From Hydrogenophilales bacterium (GTDB taxonomy: Bacteria > Pseudomonadota > Gammaproteobacteria > Burkholderiales > Thiobacillaceae): 64,000 nucleotides of DNA. The stretch's first letter is position 1. Each line of letters starts with the position of its first letter. This document shows positions 5,308-44,345 of the stretch, piece by piece. The DNA is taken from the NCBI GenBank assembly GCA_016195805.1, contig JACPYT010000011.1, positions 124,001-188,000 on the forward strand, read 5' to 3'. The notes under the pieces are model-generated. The model did not search any database. It was not told where the DNA came from and worked only from the letters and a program-made list of their open reading frames with translations. The translations under genes were made by a program, and so were the position numbers.

Positions 5308-5378
5308 CCCATACGTCCGGCGCGGTGTGCGGAAACGGAACCGGACACTTATTCACGTAAACTTTTTTAGGATTTCAC

Positions 5379-5870
5379 ATGGTCAAGCTGCACACGAATC
5401 ACGGCATCATCGTCCTCGAACTCGACGCCGAGAAGGCTCCCAAGACGGTCGAAAACTTCCTGCAATACGTGCGCGACGGCTTCTTCGACGGCACCGTCTT
5501 CCACCGTGTGATCGACGGCTTCATGATTCAGGGCGGCGGCTTCGAACCCGGCATGACGCAGAAACCCACCCGTGCCACGATCGAGAACGAAGCGTCCAAC
5601 GGCCTCAAGAACGAGGCCTACACCATCGCCATGGCGCGCACCCCCAATCCCAATTCGGCCACCGCGCAGTTCTTCATCAACGTCGCCAACAACAGCTTCC
5701 TCAACTTCACCGCGCCGACCCCGCAGGGCTACGGCTATGCCGTGTTCGGCAAAGTGGTCGAAGGCATGGACGTGGTCGACGCGATCAAGAAGGTCAAGAC
5801 CGGCAACCGCGCCGGGCACCAGGACGTGCCGCTGGAAGACGTGGTGATCACCAAGGCGGAAATCGTCTGA
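5379..5870 (+). CDS. ppiB: Peptidyl-prolyl cis-trans isomerase, cyclophilin type
   Basis: [39 protein letters not shown]. Confidence 0.95.
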
Positions 5871-5877
5871 CCGGCCG

Positions 5878-6627
5878 GTGAGCCTGACGGAAAAACCAGG
5901 CGCGGGCCGCACCTACTTCGTTGCCGACCTGCACCTGACCGACGAACGCCCGGCTGCCACCGGGCGTTTTTTTCGCTTCCTGCAGGACGAGGCGGCAGGT
6001 GCAGATGCGCTCTACATCCTCGGCGACCTGTTCGAGGCCTGGATCGGCGACGACCACGACGAACAGGTCGCCGGCGACACGGCGCAACGGCTCGCGACGC
6101 TGGTCGCCGCCGGCACGCGGGTGTACTTCATGCACGGCAACCGCGACTTCATGCTGGCCGAGCGCTACGCCGCGCGTTCCGGCATGAAGCTGCTGGCGGA
6201 TCCGGCCCGCATCGACCTGTACGGCGTGCCGACGCTGTTGATGCACGGCGACACCCTGTGTACCGACGATACCGCCTACCAGGATTTCCGCCGCCGCGTC
6301 CGCCATCCGCTGACGCGCGCGCTGCTGCGCCGCCTGCCACGGGCGTTGCGTAGCCGCATGGCGCGCCAGGCACGGGCCGGCAGCGAAGCGGCCAAGACGC
6401 ACAAGGCCGCCGCGATCATGGATGCGAATGCCGACGAAGTCGTGCGCGTACTGCGCGAACACCAGGCCGGCCGCCTGATCCACGGCCACACCCATCGTCC
6501 CGCGCAGCATGTCCATGAGGTCGACGGCCGCGAATGCGAACGCTGGGTGGTACCCGACTGGTATGCCCGCTGGGGCTATGTGGTGTGCGACGCCAGGGGC
6601 TGCACGCTCAGGGTCGAGGATCTATGA
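5878..6627 (+). CDS. lpxH: UDP-2,3-diacylglucosamine diphosphatase (GTG start)
   Basis: FVADLHLTDERPA, GDLFEAWIGDD, HGNRDFML, HGHTHRPA metallophosphoesterase motifs. Confidence 0.93.
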   Translation: MSLTEKPGAGRTYFVADLHLTDERPAATGRFFRFLQDEAAGADALYILGDLFEAWIGDDHDEQVAGDTAQRLATLVAAGTRVYFMHGNRDFMLAERYAARSGMKLLADPARIDLYGVPTLLMHGDTLCTDDTAYQDFRRRVRHPLTRALLRRLPRALRSRMARQARAGSEAAKTHKAAAIMDANADEVVRVLREHQAGRLIHGHTHRPAQHVHEVDGRECERWVVPDWYARWGYVVCDARGCTLRVEDL

Positions 6628-6648
6628 CGACGCGTTGACCTCGCCTGC

Positions 6649-7302
6649 CTATGACGGCGCATTGACCTGCGCCATGCCCTCCGGCACACGGAACAGTTCG
6701 GGGTTCACCGGCTGCCGGGTTTCGCTTTCGAATGTCCGCGTCCGCCCGGTGAACTCACGTTCCTCCAGGGGCAGGCCGAGCTTGAGCGTGTCGCCCGAGT
6801 TCCACACCTGATTCGCCAGGTCACAGTCATACTGCAAATCGGGAGGCGATGCCTTCCACACCCGGTATTGGGTCGCGGCCAGAATGGACTTCTGCTCGGC
6901 CATCGCACGCGCCACATCCAAGGCGTGCCGGGCGGCAATGCCGGCACTGCATGTCACGCCCTTGACCGTCAGGGTGAAACGCTTGCCGCCGCGCTCGGCC
7001 TTGTCCGCGACCAGCCGGGGCTTCCAGCCGGCGGGTTGCGGCGGCAGCGTGCCGGGCGCGAACACCATCGCCAGCCTGCTGTCGTGCATGACGTTGATGA
7101 CCACGCGCCGCTTGCGGTCCAGCAGGCTGAAATCGCCCGCGTCCTCGCCGCTGTCCATGCGCATGAAATCGGGGGTCACCAGGATGCGCGTCGTGTAAGG
7201 CGGGCCGCCGGGGTCCTGGTCGACATAACGCAGCACCGTCATGTCGTCCGCATGCGCGATACCGACGCACAGCGCGAGCAGAAGACCGAACAGCGCATTC
7301 AT
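6649..7302 (-). CDS. Secreted hypothetical protein
   Basis: ORF with signal peptide MNALFGLLLALCVGIAHA; start at 7302 abuts the metZ stop. Confidence 0.7.
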   Translation of the reverse strand: MNALFGLLLALCVGIAHADDMTVLRYVDQDPGGPPYTTRILVTPDFMRMDSGEDAGDFSLLDRKRRVVINVMHDSRLAMVFAPGTLPPQPAGWKPRLVADKAERGGKRFTLTVKGVTCSAGIAARHALDVARAMAEQKSILAATQYRVWKASPPDLQYDCDLANQVWNSGDTLKLGLPLEEREFTGRTRTFESETRQPVNPELFRVPEGMAQVNAPS

Positions 7303-8474
7303 CACCCCAGCCCGCGCGCCAGGTCTGCCTGGATGTCGGCCACCGATTCCAGCCCAGCAGCGATGCGTACCAGCCCGTCGCCGATGCCGGCTGCCGCGCG
7401 CTGCTCCGCCGTCATGCGGCTGTGCGTGGTCGACGCGGGGTGGGTGATCGTGGATTTGGTATCGCCGAGGTTGGCGGTGATCGAGAGCAGCTTCGTCGCG
7501 TCGATCAGCTTCCAGGCGGCATCCTTGCCCCCCTTGAGCTCGAACGAGACGATGCCGCCGCCGGTTTTCTGCTGGCGCATCGCGAGCTCGTGCTGCGGGT
7601 GCGACGGCAGGCCGGGATACCACACGCGCGCCACCTGTGGCTGGGCTTCCAGCCATTGCGCCAGCGCCAGCGCGTTTCTCGAATGCGCTTCCATGCGCAG
7701 CGAGAGCGTCTCCATGCCTTTGAGGATCACCCAGGCGTTGAACGCCGACAGGGTCGGACCGGCGGTACGCAGGAAGGTATAGACGCCCTCCATCAGCTCC
7801 TTGCCGCCCAGCACGGCACCCCCGAGCACCCTGCCCTGCCCGTCGAGATACTTGGTGGCGGAGTGGATCACGATGTCGGCGCCGAATTCGAGCGGCTTCT
7901 GCAGCGCAGGCGAGCAGAAGCAGTTGTCGACCGCAAGCCAGGCGCCGGCCTCGTGCGCGATATCGGCGAGCGCGCGGATGTCGCTGACTTCGGTGAGCGG
8001 GTTGGACGGCGATTCGACGAAAAAGAGCTTCGTGTTCGGCTTCACCGCCGCACGCCATTCCGCCGGATCGGTCGGCGACACATAGGTCGTCTCAACGCCG
8101 AAGCGGCCGAGGATGTTGGAGAACAGCTGCACCGTCGAGCCGAAGATCGAACGCGACGCAACGACATGCTCGCCCGCTTTCATCAGCCCCATCACCGTCG
8201 CCAGGATCGACGCCATGCCGGAAGAAAATGCCACGCAGCGCTCGGCGCCTTCCAGCGCGGCGAGCCGCGCCTCCATCATGCTGACGGTAGGATTGGCGAA
8301 GCGCGCATAGATGGGCCCGGGCTGTTCGCCCTTGAAACGTGCCGCCGCCTCCGCAGCGCTGCCGAACATGAAGCTCGAAGTGAGGAATATCGCCTCCGAG
8401 TGTTCGTTGAACTGGCTGCGCACCGTACCAGCACGCACGGCCAGCGTCTCAATGTCGAATTCGTCGTTGTTCAT
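7302..8474 (-). CDS. metZ: O-succinylhomoserine sulfhydrylase
   Basis: Cys/Met metabolism PLP enzyme: IHSATKYLDGQGRVLGG, SSGMASILATVMGL, TTHSRMTAEQRAAAGI. Confidence 0.93.
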   Translation of the reverse strand: MNNDEFDIETLAVRAGTVRSQFNEHSEAIFLTSSFMFGSAAEAAARFKGEQPGPIYARFANPTVSMMEARLAALEGAERCVAFSSGMASILATVMGLMKAGEHVVASRSIFGSTVQLFSNILGRFGVETTYVSPTDPAEWRAAVKPNTKLFFVESPSNPLTEVSDIRALADIAHEAGAWLAVDNCFCSPALQKPLEFGADIVIHSATKYLDGQGRVLGGAVLGGKELMEGVYTFLRTAGPTLSAFNAWVILKGMETLSLRMEAHSRNALALAQWLEAQPQVARVWYPGLPSHPQHELAMRQQKTGGGIVSFELKGGKDAAWKLIDATKLLSITANLGDTKSTITHPASTTHSRMTAEQRAAAGIGDGLVRIAAGLESVADIQADLARGLG

Positions 8475-35106: not shown

Positions 35107-37686
35107 TTACGCCGGCTCAGATTCGGCGATGCGCCGGGCGATATGGGCCAGCGCCTCCTCCACCTGATCGATCAGGATCAGGCACAGATCGCCGGCCTTC
35201 AGGTGCGACAACGCGGTATCGATGGCAAGAAACTCGCCGGTGATCTTTTCGACGGCCCGCGTGCGCGATGCATTGCGTAGCCCCTCCTCGAGCAGGGCCA
35301 GCACTTCGCCCTCGGCACGGCCGCGCTGGCACTGGTCCTGATAAAGAATCGCCGCGTCGAACGCCGCGCCCAGAATCCGGGTCTGGTCACGGATGTCCTC
35401 GTCGCGCCGATCGCCCGCGCCGCTGATCACGACGATCCGGCGTTGCGCCGGCAAGGCTTCCACCGCCTTGACGAGGGCGAGAATGGCATCCGGATTGTGC
35501 CCGTAGTCGGCGATGAGCGTGGCACCACGGTAATCGAACAGATTGAAGCGGCCCGGGACGCTCTGTGCCGTGCTGTCGAAGCTGCGCAGGCCGGTGCGGA
35601 TGATGTCCCAGTCCAGTTCCAGCGCCCAGGCGGCGGCGGTGGCCGCCATCGCATTCTCGATCTGGAAACGGATGGTGCCGCCGTGCGTGAGCGGGATGTC
35701 CGCCAAGGGCAGCCGCTGCTCGGCATCGCCCCATGCCGCCACGAGGCAGCCGCCGTCGAGGTAGATCACCCGATGTCCCTGGGCGCGATGGGCGGCGATG
35801 ATGGGGTGGTGGGGCTCGCTGGCGAAGAAGGTCACCGACCCCGGGCAATGGATCGCCATCTCGGCGGTCCTGGGGTCGCAGGCGTTGAGGACCGCGACGC
35901 CGTCCGGGGCGACGTTCTGCACCACCACCTGCTTGAGCACGGCGAGATCTTCCACTGTGGTGATGAAATTGAGGCCGAGGTGGTCGCCCATGCCGATATT
36001 CGTCACCACCGCGACCTTGCAGCGGTCGAACGCCAGGCCTTCGCGCAACAGCCCGCCGCGGGCCGTCTCCAGTACCGCCGCGTCGACATCCGGATGCAGC
36101 AGGATGTTGCGTGCGCTTTTCGGGCCGCTGCAGTCGCCGGTGTCGATGCGCCGGCCCTGCACATACACGCCATCCGTCGCAGTCATGCCGACGCGCTTGC
36201 CGCTGAGGGTCAGGAAATGGGCGATCAGGCGCACGGTCGTGGTCTTGCCGTTGGTGCCGGTCACCGCCACCACAGGGATCCGTCCATCCTCGCCCGGCGG
36301 GAACAGGGTCGAAACAATGGCCTCGCCCACCGGCTGCCCCTTGCCATAGGAAGGCATGAGATGCATGCGCAGGCCCGGCGCCGCATTGACCTCGACCACG
36401 CCTCCGCCCTGCTCTTCCAGCGGCTTGTGCACGGTCTGGCAGACGACGTCGACGCCGCAGACATCCAGCCCGATCATCTGCGCCGCTTCCACCGCCCGGG
36501 CCGCCACCTCAGGATGGACATCGTCGGTGACGTCGGTCGCGGAGCCGCCCGTGCTCAGGTTGGCGTTGTTGCGCAGGACGACCCGCTCGCCCATGGCGGG
36601 GATCGTGTCGGCGTCGTAATTCTGTACGGCGAGACGGGCCATGGCGATGTCGTCCAGGCGTATCCGCGTCAGCGAAGTGGCATGCCCCTCGCCGCGGCGC
36701 GGGTCGCTGTTCACCTGTGCGACAAGTTCGCGCACCGTATGCACGCCATCGCCGATCACGTGCGGCGGCTCGCGGCGAGCCGCGGCGACCAGCCGATTGC
36801 CGGCCACGAGCAGGCGATAATCATGGCCCGGGATGAAGCGCTCCACCAGCACCTCCTCGCTGATCGCCGCCGCTGCGCCATACACCGCCATGAAGTGTTC
36901 CCGCGTGAGGATGTTGACCGTCACCCCCTTGCCCTGATTGCCGTCGCGCGGTTTGACCACCACCGGCAGTCCGACCTCGCAGGCGGCCGTCCAGCCTTCC
37001 TCGGCATCGGTCACGACCCGCCCGAGCGGCACCGGGACGCATGCGGCCTCCAGAAGCTTCTTGGTGAGATCCTTGTCCTGGGCGATCGCCTCGGAAATGG
37101 CGCGGGTACGGTCGGTCTCGGCCGCCTGGATGCGCCGCTGACGGCTGCCCCAGCCGAACTGCACGAGACTGCTCGTCGTCAGGCGCCGATAGGGAATGCC
37201 CCGCGCGACGGCAGCCTGGACGATGGCACCGGTGCTGGGGCCGAGGCGAACGTCTTCGTCCAGGTCCCGCAGCCGTGCCAGGGCATCCTCCAGATCGAAG
37301 GCAGTATCGTCGCGTGCGGCACGGCATAGCGACTCGGCCAGCTCGAGCGCCAGTCGCCCAACGGCTTCCTCGGTATATTCAAAGACCAGCTGATAGGTCC
37401 CCGTCTCGACCGTGGGCGAGGTGACGCAGAAACTGACCGGACAGCCGGCCTGCGCCTGCAGGCCGAGCGCGGCAAAGGCCAGCGCATGCGCCACGGAAAT
37501 GTCGTCCTCGTCCCCGATCGGCCGCATCGGGCCAATTTCCGGAAAACGCGCCCGCAAGCGCGCCTCGAACCCGCTGATCGTGCCGATCATGATCTCTTCG
37601 GATGCACACCGCACCAACGCCTCGATGGCAGTGTGCCGGCTCCAGAGATTGGGTCCGCGCAGTGCCCGGATACGTGATATGTCCAT
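35107..37686 (-). CDS. cphA: Cyanophycin synthetase
   Basis: 859 aa; N-terminal DISRIRALRGPNLWSRHTAIEALV; ATP-grasp VVVKPRDGNQGKGVTVNI; Mur-ligase P-loop VTGTNGKTTTVRLIAHFL; C-terminal lobe ADYGHNPDAILALV. Confidence 0.95.
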   Translation of the reverse strand: MDISRIRALRGPNLWSRHTAIEALVRCASEEIMIGTISGFEARLRARFPEIGPMRPIGDEDDISVAHALAFAALGLQAQAGCPVSFCVTSPTVETGTYQLVFEYTEEAVGRLALELAESLCRAARDDTAFDLEDALARLRDLDEDVRLGPSTGAIVQAAVARGIPYRRLTTSSLVQFGWGSRQRRIQAAETDRTRAISEAIAQDKDLTKKLLEAACVPVPLGRVVTDAEEGWTAACEVGLPVVVKPRDGNQGKGVTVNILTREHFMAVYGAAAAISEEVLVERFIPGHDYRLLVAGNRLVAAARREPPHVIGDGVHTVRELVAQVNSDPRRGEGHATSLTRIRLDDIAMARLAVQNYDADTIPAMGERVVLRNNANLSTGGSATDVTDDVHPEVAARAVEAAQMIGLDVCGVDVVCQTVHKPLEEQGGGVVEVNAAPGLRMHLMPSYGKGQPVGEAIVSTLFPPGEDGRIPVVAVTGTNGKTTTVRLIAHFLTLSGKRVGMTATDGVYVQGRRIDTGDCSGPKSARNILLHPDVDAAVLETARGGLLREGLAFDRCKVAVVTNIGMGDHLGLNFITTVEDLAVLKQVVVQNVAPDGVAVLNACDPRTAEMAIHCPGSVTFFASEPHHPIIAAHRAQGHRVIYLDGGCLVAAWGDAEQRLPLADIPLTHGGTIRFQIENAMAATAAAWALELDWDIIRTGLRSFDSTAQSVPGRFNLFDYRGATLIADYGHNPDAILALVKAVEALPAQRRIVVISGAGDRRDEDIRDQTRILGAAFDAAILYQDQCQRGRAEGEVLALLEEGLRNASRTRAVEKITGEFLAIDTALSHLKAGDLCLILIDQVEEALAHIARRIAESEPA

Positions 37687-37738
37687 GAACGCCTGTTCCT
37701 GTTGGGGTGTCCGACGGCCGATCGGGCCGGTCGAGTGT

Positions 37739-39934
37739 CTATCCTGAATGGCTGGCCTGGCCCGCAGGCGAGTGGAGCGAGACGCAGGTTTCGATCCCGG
37801 CCCGGATCAGGTCCGGCGGAATATCCAGCGCCAGCGCCACGCCGATTGCGGCGAGTATATGCAAGGGTTGCGGGAGGGGGTTCCCGTCCATGACCGACGG
37901 CAGGGTACCCAGGTCGAAGAACGGCCGCTCGTCGGTCCCGCCCGCGATGACCACCTGGTTGCCACGCAGGAACACCGCCCTGCCTCCCCGTGCGCGGTGT
38001 TCGGCGATCACCGGCAGATCGGGGGCGAGCGCGTAGAACAGGACACCGCCGTCGCACAGCGAAGCCAGTTCCGCCACCGCCGGGTCGGCGGCATGCAGGA
38101 CCGCCATCCCCTCCGACAGGACCACATCCACCTGGGTACGCATCACCGTGTGCATGTGCCCGGGTTCGCGGATGTAATACTCGGCCAGCGATGCGTCCAT
38201 CTGCAGGTCGGTCACCACGCCGACCTGGCAGCGGTCATAGGCATAGCCCTCGCCGAGGATCGATTTCGCATCGTGTTCGAAGATGGCGGTGTCCACGCCC
38301 CGGTTCATCAGCAGCTGCCGGCCCACGCGCCAGCTTGCGCAGTTCCCCGGCCTGACCTGGCGCGTGCCCAGATACAGGCCGTCGCGGCAGGCCAGGCCCG
38401 TGCGCTTGCCGGTACACGTAATCAGCTGGGCGACCAGGTGCGCGATGGCGGTGGTTCCCTGCGAGCCGCTGATGCCGACGATGGGGATGCGGCCGCTCTC
38501 CCCATCGGGAAACAGATGGTCGACGATGGCGCGGCCCACCGGACGCGGCGTGCCTTCGGCGGGTTTGAGGTGCATGAGCAGTCCCGGTCCCGCGTTCACT
38601 TCGACGATAGCCCCGCCCTGCGCCGCCAGCGGCCGAGAGATGTCTTCCGCCACCATGTCGATCCCCGCCACGTCGAGCCCGACCACCCGCGCGGCGAGGA
38701 CGGCCGTTTCCACCACGTCGGGGTGGAGCGTGTCGGTCACGTCGAGGGCGACGTTGCCATTGCGCTGGATCAGGACCTTCTGCCCCGCCGCCGGAACAGT
38801 ATCCTGCGTAACCCCCTGGCGCTCCAGCTCGAGACCGACTGCCGGGTCTTCGTCGATCAGGATCTTGTTGAGCGGGTAGTCTTCCGTCGTGCCGCGGCGC
38901 GGATCGGTATTGAGCTGGCTGTCGATCAGCCCGGCGATGGTCGAGCGGCCATCGCCCCGCACCCAGGCCGCCTCGCCGCGCGCCGCCGCGACGACACGCG
39001 AGCCGACCACCAGCAGGCGGTGTTCGTTGCCGGGCACATAGCGCTCGACGATGACCTCGCTGCCTTCCGGCAAGGCCAGTTGATAGGCACGCTCGACATC
39101 TTCGCGCGTGGTCAGATCGAGGGAGACGCCCCGGCCATGGTTGCCATCCACCGGTTTGATCGCGACCGGCAGGCCGATCTCCTCCGCCGCGTCCCAGGCA
39201 TCTTCCGGGCCTTCTGCAATGCGGCCGTCCGGCACCGGCACCCCGCAGGATTTCAGGAGGCTCTTGGTCAGATCCTTGTCGCTCGCGATGCCTTCGGCGA
39301 TCGCGCTGGTGAGGTCCGTTTCCGCCGTCCAGATGCGATGCTGGCGGGCGCCATAGCCGAGCTGCACCAGATTGCCCTCGGTCAGGCGAATGAACGGGAT
39401 ATGCCGGCTGGCCGCTCCGTCGACGATGCAGGCCGTACTCGGGCCCAGGCAGAGCCGGTCTGCCTGGTCGCGCAGGCGCGCCACCGTGCCCTGCACATCG
39501 AAGGGGCGGTCTTCGATGGCAGCCAGCAGCAGGTCGCGTCCGGCCTGCAGGCAGGCACGTCCGACCTGCTCGTTGCGCGTGCGCACCGCCACCTTGTAGA
39601 TGCCGCGCTCGGGGGTCTCGCGCGCCTTGCCGAAGCCGACCTTCATGCCGGCCAGATTCTGCAGCTCGATCGTGAGGTGTTCGAGAATATGGGCCGGCCA
39701 GGTTCCCTCGCGCAGACGCAGCAGGAAGCCGCCGCGCTCGCCGACGCCGCAGCGATGCTCGATCAGGCCGGGCAGCCAGCCGGTCAGGCGCTCATACAGG
39801 CCGGGAATGGTGTTGGAAGGCGAATCCTCGAGGTCGCCGATATCGACCCAGGCTTCGAGCACGGGCCGGTAGGTCCAGATATTCGGACCGTCCAGATGGG
39901 TAACGCGCAGGAATTCGATGGTTTTTCTGTTCAC
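37739..39934 (-). CDS. Second cyanophycin synthetase-like protein (CphA'/CphA2-like), degenerate Mur-ligase domain
   Basis: 731 aa; N-terminal RVTHLDGPNIWTYRPVLEAWVDIG; ATP-grasp VAIKPVDGNHGRGVSLDL; P-loop replaced by VGISGSQGTTAIAHLVAQL; no GHNP-containing C-terminal lobe. Confidence 0.9.
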   Translation of the reverse strand: MNRKTIEFLRVTHLDGPNIWTYRPVLEAWVDIGDLEDSPSNTIPGLYERLTGWLPGLIEHRCGVGERGGFLLRLREGTWPAHILEHLTIELQNLAGMKVGFGKARETPERGIYKVAVRTRNEQVGRACLQAGRDLLLAAIEDRPFDVQGTVARLRDQADRLCLGPSTACIVDGAASRHIPFIRLTEGNLVQLGYGARQHRIWTAETDLTSAIAEGIASDKDLTKSLLKSCGVPVPDGRIAEGPEDAWDAAEEIGLPVAIKPVDGNHGRGVSLDLTTREDVERAYQLALPEGSEVIVERYVPGNEHRLLVVGSRVVAAARGEAAWVRGDGRSTIAGLIDSQLNTDPRRGTTEDYPLNKILIDEDPAVGLELERQGVTQDTVPAAGQKVLIQRNGNVALDVTDTLHPDVVETAVLAARVVGLDVAGIDMVAEDISRPLAAQGGAIVEVNAGPGLLMHLKPAEGTPRPVGRAIVDHLFPDGESGRIPIVGISGSQGTTAIAHLVAQLITCTGKRTGLACRDGLYLGTRQVRPGNCASWRVGRQLLMNRGVDTAIFEHDAKSILGEGYAYDRCQVGVVTDLQMDASLAEYYIREPGHMHTVMRTQVDVVLSEGMAVLHAADPAVAELASLCDGGVLFYALAPDLPVIAEHRARGGRAVFLRGNQVVIAGGTDERPFFDLGTLPSVMDGNPLPQPLHILAAIGVALALDIPPDLIRAGIETCVSLHSPAGQASHSG

Positions 39935-40201: not shown

Positions 40202-42508
40202 ATGACCCGAACACGCCATTCTCTCCCCAGCCCCTTCGCGAACGCCCCCGATGTCTGGCAGGCCGAACTGGCCCCGCTGCTCGCGCGCGACGAGCAGGTC
40301 GTTGCCACGCTGGAAACCGATCTCGACGTGCATCTGGCCTTCTCGCCGGGACAGGTGGTGCTGACCGACCGGCGCCTGCTGGCCCGGTCGCCCGGCGACG
40401 AAGACTGGGCTGTCTGGCCGTTGAGGCCGGGCCTGTCCCTGCAGCATCACGATCATGCCGGCGTGGGCACGCTGGAACTGCACGACGCCATCTCGCGTCT
40501 GGCCTGCTGGCGCTTTACCCTGGCCCACAATGTGGCGGCCCTGCGGCTGCACGATCGTTTTGCGGAACACTTGGCGGCCCGACTGACCGGCCAGCCGGTG
40601 GAACCACTGGATGAAGCGGCATGCCCCACCTGCAAGGCGCCGCTCCCGCCCGATCAGGAGGAATGCCCGATATGCAGCCGCGAACTGCATGAGGCGCCGT
40701 CCACCTGGACCCTGTTCCGACTCTGGCGCTTTGCCCGCCCCTACCGGAACCAGCTATTGGCCGGATTCCTGCTGACCCTGGCCTCCACCGGGGCCACCCT
40801 GGTGCCGCCCTACCTGACCATGCCCCTGATGGACAAGGTGCTGATCCCCTATCAGGAAGGCCACCCGATCGATACCGGCGTGGTGGCGCTCCTCCTCCTC
40901 GGCCTGCTGGCATCGGCCCTGCTGGCCTGGAGCCTCGGCTGGGCGCGCACTTATATCCTGGCCCTGGTCAGCGAGCGCATCGGCGCCGACCTGCGCACCA
41001 CGACCTACGAGCATCTGTTGCAGCTGTCGCTGGAATACTTCGGCGGCAAACGCACCGGCGACCTGATGACGCGCATCGGGTCGGAGACCGACCGCATCTG
41101 CGTCTTCCTGTCGCTGCATCTGCTCGACTTCTTCACCGACGTGCTGATGATCGGCATGACCGCGCTGATCCTGTTTTCCATCAATCCCGCGCTCGCCCTG
41201 GTCACCCTGCTGCCGCTGCCCTTCATCGCCTGGATGATCCATCTGGTGCGCGACCGGCTGCGCACCGGCTTCGAGAAGATCGACCGCGTCTGGTCCGAGG
41301 TCACCAACGTGCTGGCCGACACCATTCCCGGCATCCGCGTAGTGAAGGCCTTCGCTCAGGAAAAACGCGAGGCGCAGCGCTTCCGCGAGGCCAACCGCCA
41401 TAACCTGGCGGTCAACGACCGCATCAACAAGACGTGGTCGCTATTCTCGCCCTCGGTCACCCTGCTCACCGAGATCGGGCTGCTGGTGGTGTGGGCCTTC
41501 GGCATCTGGCAGGTCGCCCATGACCAGATCACGGTCGGCGTGCTCACCGCCTTCCTCGCCTACATCAGCCGCTTCTACAGCCGCCTCGACTCGATGAGCC
41601 GCATCGTCTCGGTGACGCAGAAGGCCGCCGCCGGCGCCAAGCGCATCTTCGACATCCTCGACCACGTCTCCAGCGTCCCCGAGCCGACCAAACCGCAGCA
41701 CCTCGACAAGGTGCAGGGCCGCATCGAGATCCGCGACGCCGCCTTCCGCTACGGCAACCGCGGCGTCATCCGCGGCGTCAACCTCGCCATCCAGCCGGGC
41801 GAGATGATCGGCCTGGTCGGCCACAGCGGCTCGGGCAAGAGCACCCTGGTCAATCTCATCTGCCGCTTCTACGACGTCACCGAAGGCGCCATCCACGTCG
41901 ACGGCATCGACATCCGCTCGCTGCCGGTGGCGGACTACCGGCGCCACATCGGCCTCGTGCTGCAGGAGCCTTTCCTGTTCTTCGGCACCATCGCCGAGAA
42001 CATCGCCTACGGCAAACCCGACGCCAGCCGCGCGGAGATCGTCGCAGCGGCTCGTGCGGCGCATGCCCACGAATTCATCCTGCGCCTGCCGCAGGGCTAC
42101 GACTCGCTGGTCGGCGAACGCGGCCAGGGGTTGTCCGGCGGCGAGCGCCAGCGCATCTCGATCGCCCGCGCGCTGCTGATCGACCCGCGCATCCTCATCC
42201 TCGACGAGGCGACCTCCTCGGTGGACACCGAGACGGAAAAGGAAATCCAGAAAGCGCTCGACAACCTGGTGCGCGGACGCACCACCCTCGCGATCGCCCA
42301 CCGCCTTTCCACGCTGCGCCGCGCCGACCGCCTGGTCGTGATGGACCGCGGCCAGATCGTCGAGGTCGGCAATCACGACGACCTGATGGCGCGCGAAGGC
42401 CACTATTACCGCCTCTACCAGGCGCAGGCGCGCAATGTCGACACCGACCTCGACGAGCAGCTCGCGGCCAGTGCCGAGGCCAAACCCCCATTGAAAAACG
42501 CACCATGA
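40202..42508 (+). CDS. ABC transporter, fused TM and ATPase, with N-terminal PH-like region and zinc ribbon; cyanophycin-locus associated
   Basis: N-terminal LTDRRLLARS...DHAGVGTLELHD; CPTCKAPLPPDQEECPICSREL; 6-TM exporter fold; Walker A GHSGSGKST; LSGGERQR; ILILDEATSSVD. Confidence 0.93.
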   Translation: MTRTRHSLPSPFANAPDVWQAELAPLLARDEQVVATLETDLDVHLAFSPGQVVLTDRRLLARSPGDEDWAVWPLRPGLSLQHHDHAGVGTLELHDAISRLACWRFTLAHNVAALRLHDRFAEHLAARLTGQPVEPLDEAACPTCKAPLPPDQEECPICSRELHEAPSTWTLFRLWRFARPYRNQLLAGFLLTLASTGATLVPPYLTMPLMDKVLIPYQEGHPIDTGVVALLLLGLLASALLAWSLGWARTYILALVSERIGADLRTTTYEHLLQLSLEYFGGKRTGDLMTRIGSETDRICVFLSLHLLDFFTDVLMIGMTALILFSINPALALVTLLPLPFIAWMIHLVRDRLRTGFEKIDRVWSEVTNVLADTIPGIRVVKAFAQEKREAQRFREANRHNLAVNDRINKTWSLFSPSVTLLTEIGLLVVWAFGIWQVAHDQITVGVLTAFLAYISRFYSRLDSMSRIVSVTQKAAAGAKRIFDILDHVSSVPEPTKPQHLDKVQGRIEIRDAAFRYGNRGVIRGVNLAIQPGEMIGLVGHSGSGKSTLVNLICRFYDVTEGAIHVDGIDIRSLPVADYRRHIGLVLQEPFLFFGTIAENIAYGKPDASRAEIVAAARAAHAHEFILRLPQGYDSLVGERGQGLSGGERQRISIARALLIDPRILILDEATSSVDTETEKEIQKALDNLVRGRTTLAIAHRLSTLRRADRLVVMDRGQIVEVGNHDDLMAREGHYYRLYQAQARNVDTDLDEQLAASAEAKPPLKNAP

Positions 42509-42975
42509 CGACTGCCCCGCCCCAGCTCACCCGTGACCCCCATGGCCGGCTCCAGCTGACCGCCGCCGATGGCTCCGTGCACGAAGGCGTGGTGCCGGTG
42601 CGCGCCTTTCCCATCGCCGCGCCGACCGAGGGCATTGCCCTGGTGGGCGAAGACGGGCACGAGCTGGCCTGGATCGACCGTCTGGACGTCCTGCCCGAGG
42701 CCACGCGTCAACTGGTCGAGGACGAACTGGCGAGCCGGGAATTCGTGCCGGAAATCCGCCGCCTGCGCCAGGTCTCCACCTTCGCCATCCCCAGCACCTG
42801 GGAGGTCGAAACCGACCGCGGCGAGACCCGCTTCGTCCTCAAGGGCGAAGAAGACATCCGCCGCCTCGGCGCCGCCACCCTGCTCATCGGCGACAGCCAC
42901 GGCGTGCAGTACCTGATCCGCGACCTGTTCAGCCTGGACAAGACCAGCCGCCGGCTGCTTGACCGCTTCATGTAA
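42505..42975 (+). CDS. DUF1854 domain protein, cyanophycin-locus associated
   Basis: HEGVVPVRAFPIAAPTEGIALVGEDGHELAWIDRLDVLP...FVPEIRRLRQVSTFAIPSTWEVETDRGETRFVLKGEEDIRRL; ATGA overlap with the ABC gene. Confidence 0.88.
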   Translation: MTTAPPQLTRDPHGRLQLTAADGSVHEGVVPVRAFPIAAPTEGIALVGEDGHELAWIDRLDVLPEATRQLVEDELASREFVPEIRRLRQVSTFAIPSTWEVETDRGETRFVLKGEEDIRRLGAATLLIGDSHGVQYLIRDLFSLDKTSRRLLDRFM

Positions 42976-42998
42976 AACCGACCAGACCGACTTTTCCC

Positions 42999-44345
42999 AT
43001 GACCCGCGACAATACTTCCGCCAGCGGCGGCATCCTGATCCACGCGCAGGACGAGGCTGGCCTCGCCGCCGCCCGCCATGATTTCCTCGCGCTCCTCGCC
43101 TCGCTCGCGCTCGATCATCAGGTGGAGCGCCTCCAGGAAGGCCTCGCCCTCCGCTTCCGTCTAAAGCCGGATGTCGCGCAGGAATGGGCGCCCGACTTCG
43201 ACACCACCCAGTTGAGCCAACGGCTCAAGCTCGATACCGGGGCCAAGGTCGCCGACCTGGAGCGGGAGATCCTGGTGGCCATGCTGGCGGGGCCGGTGGG
43301 CTTCGAGTTTCCCAGCTTCGCGGAGGCGCGCTCGGCCATCCACATCCGGCGCAACATCGTGCAGGCGGCACGGCGGACTGCCCTCGACTTTCACACCACC
43401 GAGGCTGAGCGCCCCGCGGACTACTGGACCTACGTCGAGGGCAAGGGCTTCACCCTCCTGCCGGGCCAGTCGCTGATCGAGGGCCTGGTGAAGGCCACCC
43501 AGCCCGAGGTGTCCGGCCAGCTCTACGCATTCTCCTGCTACCGGGCGACCGAATACGTCATCCTGCTCGGCCTTGCCCAGGAACTGGCGGTCAGCAACCC
43601 CGAACTGCTCGCTCGCCTGCAACGGCAATGGGAAAGCCGGCCCATCATGTCGGGCCAGTTCCATGACGTCTTCCTGCACGAATACGGCTCGATGGAGGCG
43701 CCGCTTCCGGCAAAGTACTACGTCCCCGGCGACCGCCTCTGGTTCCGCAATCCCGACGAACGCTCCGCCGACGTGACCGGCTACGAAGGCTCGTGGGTGT
43801 TCTATCTCGGCGGCGGCCTCTTCACCAACTTCTGGAAACGCGAGCAGCCCTTCAGCCTGACGGCGAAGTGCCTGGAGATCTACCACTGGCGGCACGGGGC
43901 CTACGTCGACGACCAGGGCGAGATGCAGATGAACGAGGCCATCGTCGAGGAACGGGTGCGCGCCACGCAGAACGATCCCGCAGAGGTGGCGCGCATCCTG
44001 CAGCGCATGCTGCGGCTGCGCGATCCCAAGGGCGTCTATCAGGAAGGGGGCTGCATCGACACCTCGCGGGAAGTTCCCCGCTGTGTCCATCCCGGCACCG
44101 CCGATATCCGCCTGCCCGAACAGCCCTTCGAGCGCTTGGGAAAACTTGTGCGCCTGCTGCGTGCCAAGACCCGTCTCCGACTCGCAGTCTGCGTCGGCCT
44201 GCCCCTCCTCCTGCCCACCCATCATGCTACGGCCGCCCACTCCATTGCCGAGGAGCTCCGTCATGCCAGCCCGTCCGAACAGATCGTCCGGCTCGAAGCC
44301 GGGATGGCGGACTGTCTCGACGCATTGGGCATCCGCCGCAAGTGA
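42999..44345 (+). CDS. Tgl-like (Bacillus spore-coat type) protein-glutamine gamma-glutamyltransferase homologue
   Basis: AGPVGFEFPSFAEARSAIHIRRNIVQAARRT, LYAFSCYRATEYVILLGLAQEL (Cys180), PAKYYVPGDRLWFRNPDERSADVTGYEGSWVFYLGGGLF (Glu263) align with recalled B. subtilis Tgl segments. Confidence 0.75.
   Translation: MTRDNTSASGGILIHAQDEAGLAAARHDFLALLASLALDHQVERLQEGLALRFRLKPDVAQEWAPDFDTTQLSQRLKLDTGAKVADLEREILVAMLAGPVGFEFPSFAEARSAIHIRRNIVQAARRTALDFHTTEAERPADYWTYVEGKGFTLLPGQSLIEGLVKATQPEVSGQLYAFSCYRATEYVILLGLAQELAVSNPELLARLQRQWESRPIMSGQFHDVFLHEYGSMEAPLPAKYYVPGDRLWFRNPDERSADVTGYEGSWVFYLGGGLFTNFWKREQPFSLTAKCLEIYHWRHGAYVDDQGEMQMNEAIVEERVRATQNDPAEVARILQRMLRLRDPKGVYQEGGCIDTSREVPRCVHPGTADIRLPEQPFERLGKLVRLLRAKTRLRLAVCVGLPLLLPTHHATAAHSIAEELRHASPSEQIVRLEAGMADCLDALGIRRK

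Follow-up and report, generated by a model that had tools for sequence, protein, structure and literature searches.

The closest characterised relative of the protein described here is Tgl, the transglutaminase of Bacillus spore coats. In the B. subtilis enzyme the exchanges C116A, E115A and H200A lead to inactivity, and the E187A mutant retains about 60% of the activity (PMC6490927). The locus itself is one of cyanophycin metabolism. The N-domain of the cyanophycin synthetase CphA carries an endo-cyanophycinase site with the motif Cx19HxxEH (PMC9262961). A recognisable cyanophycinase is present in only 2.8% of the beta-proteobacteria with cphA1 (PMC10206079), and an alternative degradation route has been called for (PMC5178258). 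With a recognisable cyanophycinase in almost none of them, the use of stored cyanophycin by beta-proteobacteria is an open question (PMC10206079, PMC5178258).

A TGL-family gene in a cyanophycin locus

The analysed window, by which we mean the whole stretch of 64,000 nucleotides from a Hydrogenophilales bacterium, contains a gene of the TGL family next to genes of cyanophycin metabolism (Table 1). The host of this stretch is a Thiobacillus. On the plus strand the genes of the ABC transporter, the DUF1854 protein and the TGL protein follow each other, and the two cphA genes are oriented divergently. The start of the DUF1854 gene overlaps the end of the transporter gene (ATGA), and 23 bases separate its stop codon from the TGL start. 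The profile matches (NF052234, NF052233 and CphA) bear out the neighbourhood given in the preliminary description, with DUF1854 directly upstream and two divergent cyanophycin synthetase genes. A substrate partner gene beside TGL was not found. The 859-aa CphA contains the Mur-ligase domains and lacks the motif Cx19HxxEH in its N-domain; the 731-aa homologue has this hydrolase motif and no detectable Mur-ligase domains. The two genes (35107-39934, minus strand) look like a divided pair, one with the Mur-ligase part and the other with the N-domain motif. Upstream of the TGL start codon (42976-42998) no Shine-Dalgarno sequence is evident, yet this start position is conserved throughout Thiobacillus. 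The TGL gene may rely on the DUF1854 gene before it for its translation.

Table 1. Positions of the cyanophycin genes and of the parts of the TGL gene within the window.
Feature	Coordinates	Strand	Basis
Cyanophycin synthetase, 859 aa	35107..37686	-	Family profile matches; motif check
Cyanophycin synthetase homologue, 731 aa	37739..39934	-	Family profile matches; motif check
ABC transporter, cyanophycin metabolism-associated	40202..42508	+	NF052233, E=0
DUF1854 protein, cyanophycin metabolism-associated	42505..42975	+	NF052234, 2e-72
TGL-family gene, 448 aa	42999..44345	+	ORF and translation; Pfam TGL PF20085 E=5.6e-36
N-terminal domain, about residues 1-79, beta-alpha-beta-beta	42999..43235	+	Prediction, alignments
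TGL catalytic domain, residues 80-347	43236..44039	+	Pfam match; Foldseek top matches 7c9j, 4p8i
Cys180 codon, predicted nucleophile	43536..43538	+	Aligns with Tgl Cys116; invariant
Glu263 codon, candidate acidic partner, YEGS motif	43785..43787	+	Invariant in both groups
Ser265 codon, at the Tgl Glu187 position	43791..43793	+	Profile alignment; invariant
C-terminal tail, about residues 376-448, Thiobacillus only	44124..44342	+	Family alignment

The similarity of the 448-aa protein to Tgl is real homology, far above chance. The protein matches PF20085 with 124.5 bits (cut-off 23.7) over profile positions 15-225 of 245, and all 24 relatives scanned match the same family. A search of the PDB with the single sequence retrieved Geobacillus Tgl (7c9j, E=3.1e-6) and B. 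subtilis Tgl (4p8i, E=0.07), and with the family profile these values improved to 1.3e-10 and 4.5e-5. The stretches quoted in the preliminary description pair with Tgl as claimed. With 38.4 bits the protein lies below the cut-off of 307 for the Tgl equivalog NF002869.

The earlier account of the domains has to be extended by a domain of about 75 aa at the N-terminus, which is absent from Bacillus Tgl and gave no match in Pfam; its residues 11-60 are well predicted (block pLDDT 86-95). The C-terminal extension of about 150 aa noted before, an extra segment compared with Tgl, needs a correction. Only the tail from about residue 376 is restricted to Thiobacillus, whereas the segment before it, up to about residue 372 (EIYHWRHG...GGCIDTSRE), is conserved family-wide. 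A signal peptide is not evident in the sequence, which fits the cytoplasmic location of cyanophycin.

Active site and predicted fold

Cys180 aligns with the nucleophile Cys116 of Tgl and is invariant in 24 proteins of the window type (group 1) and nine proteins of a divergent type (group 2). The alignment agrees with the preliminary description on this residue and on Ser179 in place of Tgl Glu115. It disagrees on Glu263, which had been taken as the equivalent of Glu187: in the profile alignment Ser265 occupies this position, and Glu263 pairs with Arg185, two residues before Glu187 in the same strand. Both Glu263 and Ser265 are invariant in the 24 and nine proteins of the two groups. Since Glu263 lies in a strand and only two residues separate it from the position of Glu187, its side chain may be oriented to the same side, and it is a candidate for the acidic partner of Cys180. 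His200 of Tgl lies just beyond the aligned stretch, where an ungapped extension places Phe278, so that the histidine is probably replaced by phenylalanine. At the positions of Arg185 and Asn188, which serve Q-side docking in Tgl, the TGL protein has Glu263 and Trp266. This suggests an acyl donor different from that of Tgl.

Structure prediction was based on a shallow alignment consisting of loci of related genomes only. The AlphaFold model of the full-length protein (15-row alignment) reached a mean pLDDT of 52, too poor for geometry, and the Foldseek search with this model was discarded as meaningless. The model of the catalytic core, with a mean pLDDT of 56 moderately confident, sufficed to retrieve Tgl, but not to place Glu263. 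Two Tgl structures (7c9j and 4p8i) ranked first among 350,542 chains in a Foldseek search, with probabilities of 0.94 and 0.97 and E about 3e-3. In this core model Cys180 sits at the N-terminus of a long helix. The preliminary description had named a missing structural match to Tgl and a non-conserved cysteine as grounds against its reading. Neither was seen: the cysteine is invariant, and the Tgl structures lead the fold matches of the moderately confident core model.

Group-2 proteins of the Burkholderiales (L084-L091, L093) share with group 1 the invariant cysteine, the YEGS motif and a similar N-terminal region. They are only about 25% identical to group 1, have a signal-peptide-like N-terminus and showed no linkage to cphA, and they likewise tend to occur in genomes with cphA. 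A group-2 query gave no match in 80 further genomes, an empty result that is uninformative by itself. One TGL match (G334, L096:9036-10388) was excluded from group 1, as it combines a DUF4157-like region (HELTH motif) with a following TGL domain; this protein resembles secretion-system cargo and would represent another context for the TGL fold. A further Burkholderiales protein of the TGL type (G379, L092:8685-10538) has kept 'EC' and 'GEN' and is closer to the catalytic residues of Tgl.

Distribution and linkage to cphA

For the distribution analysis we used 399 sampled Burkholderiales genomes and 399 genomes sampled across the phylum. PF20085 is present in 40 genomes of the first set and in four of the second, all four of them Burkholderiales. 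When the divergent types are excluded, 32 of the 399 Burkholderiales genomes contain a group-1 gene. We detected cphA with TIGR02068 in 147 and DUF1854 in 132 of these 399 genomes. Among the genomes with group-1 TGL 31 of 32 possess cphA, compared to 116 of the 367 others (Fisher p=9e-14); G178 is the only exception. Stratification within families yielded a Mantel-Haenszel odds ratio of about 26 (CMH p=1e-5), and in 200,000 permutations within families an overlap as large as the observed one never arose. In the Thiobacillus genomes of the relatives set, cphA occurs in all six genomes with TGL and is missing in 18 of the 19 without it. The TGL gene co-occurs with cphA beyond phylogeny, both within families and within a single genus.

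The reverse does not hold: about a fifth of the cphA-positive Burkholderiales sampled (31 of 147) contain TGL and 116 do not. One Thiobacillus genome (G021) has a complete cphA-ABC-DUF1854 locus with other genes at the place where TGL would be. Because most cphA-positive genomes lack TGL and the locus of G021 is intact without it, the gene is dispensable. The closest relatives of the window's TGL gene are in Thiobacillus; homologues were found neither in plasmids nor in viral contigs. A MAG contig titled Rhizobium sp. (L010, JAIBEL010000011.1) carries a Thiobacillus-type locus, and its title looks wrong.

TGL adjoins the cphA locus not only in Thiobacillus but also in the genomes G355, G146, G291 and G376, with different gene orders and orientations. 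In G146 (L065) cphA and TGL share 4 bases (ATGA) at the stop of the former and the start of the latter. In the maximum-likelihood tree of TGL, linkage to cphA appears in four separate parts and demands a minimum of five changes, and the strongly supported branches alone require only two. Within the order set, adjacency was observed in six of the 31 cphA-positive group-1 genomes. In the remaining 25 the gene is located elsewhere among varied housekeeping neighbours, and a search for a conserved third gene near these unlinked copies revealed none outside single genera. An apparent neighbour family at 32 loci was an antisense open reading frame of TGL itself and was rejected. In one genome (G414, L057) genes identified by eye as ornithine carbamoyltransferase and acetylornithine aminotransferase of arginine synthesis (5351-7454) are located within a few kb of a TGL gene that is not linked to cphA. 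Linkage to cphA in other genomes, whose absence would have spoken against the preliminary description, was observed as adjacency in several lineages together with a strong co-occurrence. The proposed tie to cyanophycin is backed by this co-occurrence and by the repeated adjacency, but the adjacency is not universal.

Possible function and relation to known systems

We consider it rather probable that the TGL protein is an accessory, cytoplasmic, cysteine-dependent acyltransferase or hydrolase of the Burkholderiales cyanophycin system, which acts on cyanophycin or on a granule protein. This system would consist of two CphA homologues, the ABC transporter and the DUF1854 protein, with the TGL enzyme as an accessory part. 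Cys180 at the helix N-terminus, aided by Glu263 instead of the Tgl glutamates, would attack the carbonyl of a side-chain amide or of an isopeptide bond to give a thioester. Transfer of the acyl group from this thioester to an amine would amount to transamidation, transfer to water to hydrolysis. Cyanophycin itself or a granule-associated protein would probably supply the acyl group. Of the two outcomes we slightly favour transamidation, since Tgl, the nearest relative of known activity, is a transglutaminase, although the catalytic residues differ considerably from those of Tgl. A bolder version, to which we give a low probability, is that the Cys180 thioester serves to attack amide bonds of cyanophycin, either by release or exchange of the arginine side chains or by a cut in the backbone. 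The enzyme would then be a first component of a mobilising or remodelling route in beta-proteobacteria without cyanophycinase.

If the protein were a true transglutaminase, it would link granule-associated proteins to one another through Gln-Lys bonds, or Lys-bearing cyanophycin to such proteins. This would agree with the Tgl homology, the conserved cysteine and the association with cphA, and Lys-containing cyanophycin is known (reference cited in PMC5178258). The possibility is doubtful, as serine replaces Glu115 and Glu187 of Tgl, phenylalanine probably replaces His200, and no substrate partner gene was found beside TGL. Of the earlier suggestion of Gln/Lys cross-linking or amidotransfer tied to cyanophycin, the link to the polymer held. 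Cross-linking is not established, since two of the four activity-linked Tgl residues have clearly been exchanged, and a third, His200, probably too; classical transglutaminase activity cannot be assumed. The same replacement of at least two catalytic residues would be expected if the protein had no catalytic activity and used its TGL fold to bind cyanophycin or CphA, but the invariance of Cys180 and its surrounding residues in two groups with only about 25% identity makes this very improbable.

A papain-like fold is capable of amide hydrolysis, and the enzyme could cut cyanophycin at the backbone or at the Asp-Arg isopeptide bond as part of a beta-proteobacterial degradation route. The genome analysed here gave no match to cyanophycinase (TIGR02069), IaaA or an AstE/AspA-type hydrolase and none above the cut-off to IadA; together with the rarity of cyanophycinase in cphA1-positive beta-proteobacteria (PMC10206079) and the call for an alternative pathway (PMC5178258) this speaks for a hydrolase. 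Nevertheless, we regard such a hydrolase as rather unlikely. The 731-aa CphA homologue already carries the endo-cyanophycinase motif, and 116 of the 147 cphA-positive Burkholderiales manage without TGL. The presence of TGL also shows no clear anticorrelation with cyanophycinase: two of 38 genomes with TGL and five of 42 without it have a cyanophycinase above the cut-off, so that the co-occurrence data do not support TGL as a simple replacement of this enzyme. Given its absence from most cphA-positive genomes and the missing anticorrelation, TGL is not the general answer to cyanophycin degradation, but it could contribute to a route of cyanophycin use in beta-proteobacteria. The co-occurrence itself could be a product of shared lifestyle in stress- or storage-rich environmental bacteria, with a target of the enzyme unrelated to cyanophycin. 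The unlinked position of TGL among diverse housekeeping genes in most genomes is in line with this view, as is the preference of the divergent group with signal-peptide-like N-termini for cphA-positive genomes. We judge it unlikely, because the association holds within families and within one genus and adjacency recurs in separate lineages, once with an overlap of the reading frames. As a conserved cysteine enzyme whose occurrence follows that of cphA throughout an order, TGL is a concrete candidate for modifying the polymer, assembling the granules or mobilising the store. The Tgl family would thereby reach beyond spore coats to an amino-acid polymer, with an altered active site, and the enzyme would be of interest for the tailoring of cyanophycin as a material.

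In comparison with Bacillus Tgl (PF20085; 4p8i/4pa5, 7c9j), the TGL protein has a homologous catalytic domain with the catalytic cysteine, predicted at the N-terminus of a long helix, and the core PGD...NPD...G...YLG in common. It differs in the additional N-terminal domain and C-terminal segment, in its setting in Burkholderiales with cphA, and in the exchanges Glu115 to Ser179, Arg185 to Glu263, Glu187 to Ser265, Asn188 to Trp266 and probably His200 to Phe278. The cyanophycinases (CphB/CphE, TIGR02069) and the endo-cyanophycinase of the CphA1 N-domain are serine and metallo enzymes; a sequence relationship to either was not detected, Pfam assigns only TGL, and the likeness is limited to a possible overlap of substrates. 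With the beta-proteobacterial cyanophycin locus (two cphA, NF052233 and NF052234) the TGL gene is associated either by a position inside it or by co-occurrence. In the literature searched no TGL component of this locus is described: NCBIfam lists the ABC transporter and DUF1854 as its sole partners, and a survey of cyanophycin genes names no TGL-type partner. Nor does the open literature searched describe an association of TGL with cyanophycin: of eight open papers in which cyanophycin and transglutaminase both appear, PMC7522526 lists the two separately, and the other seven seem unrelated, judged by title and abstract. Taken together, the fold family is already known, whereas its association with cyanophycin and the altered active site appear to be new.
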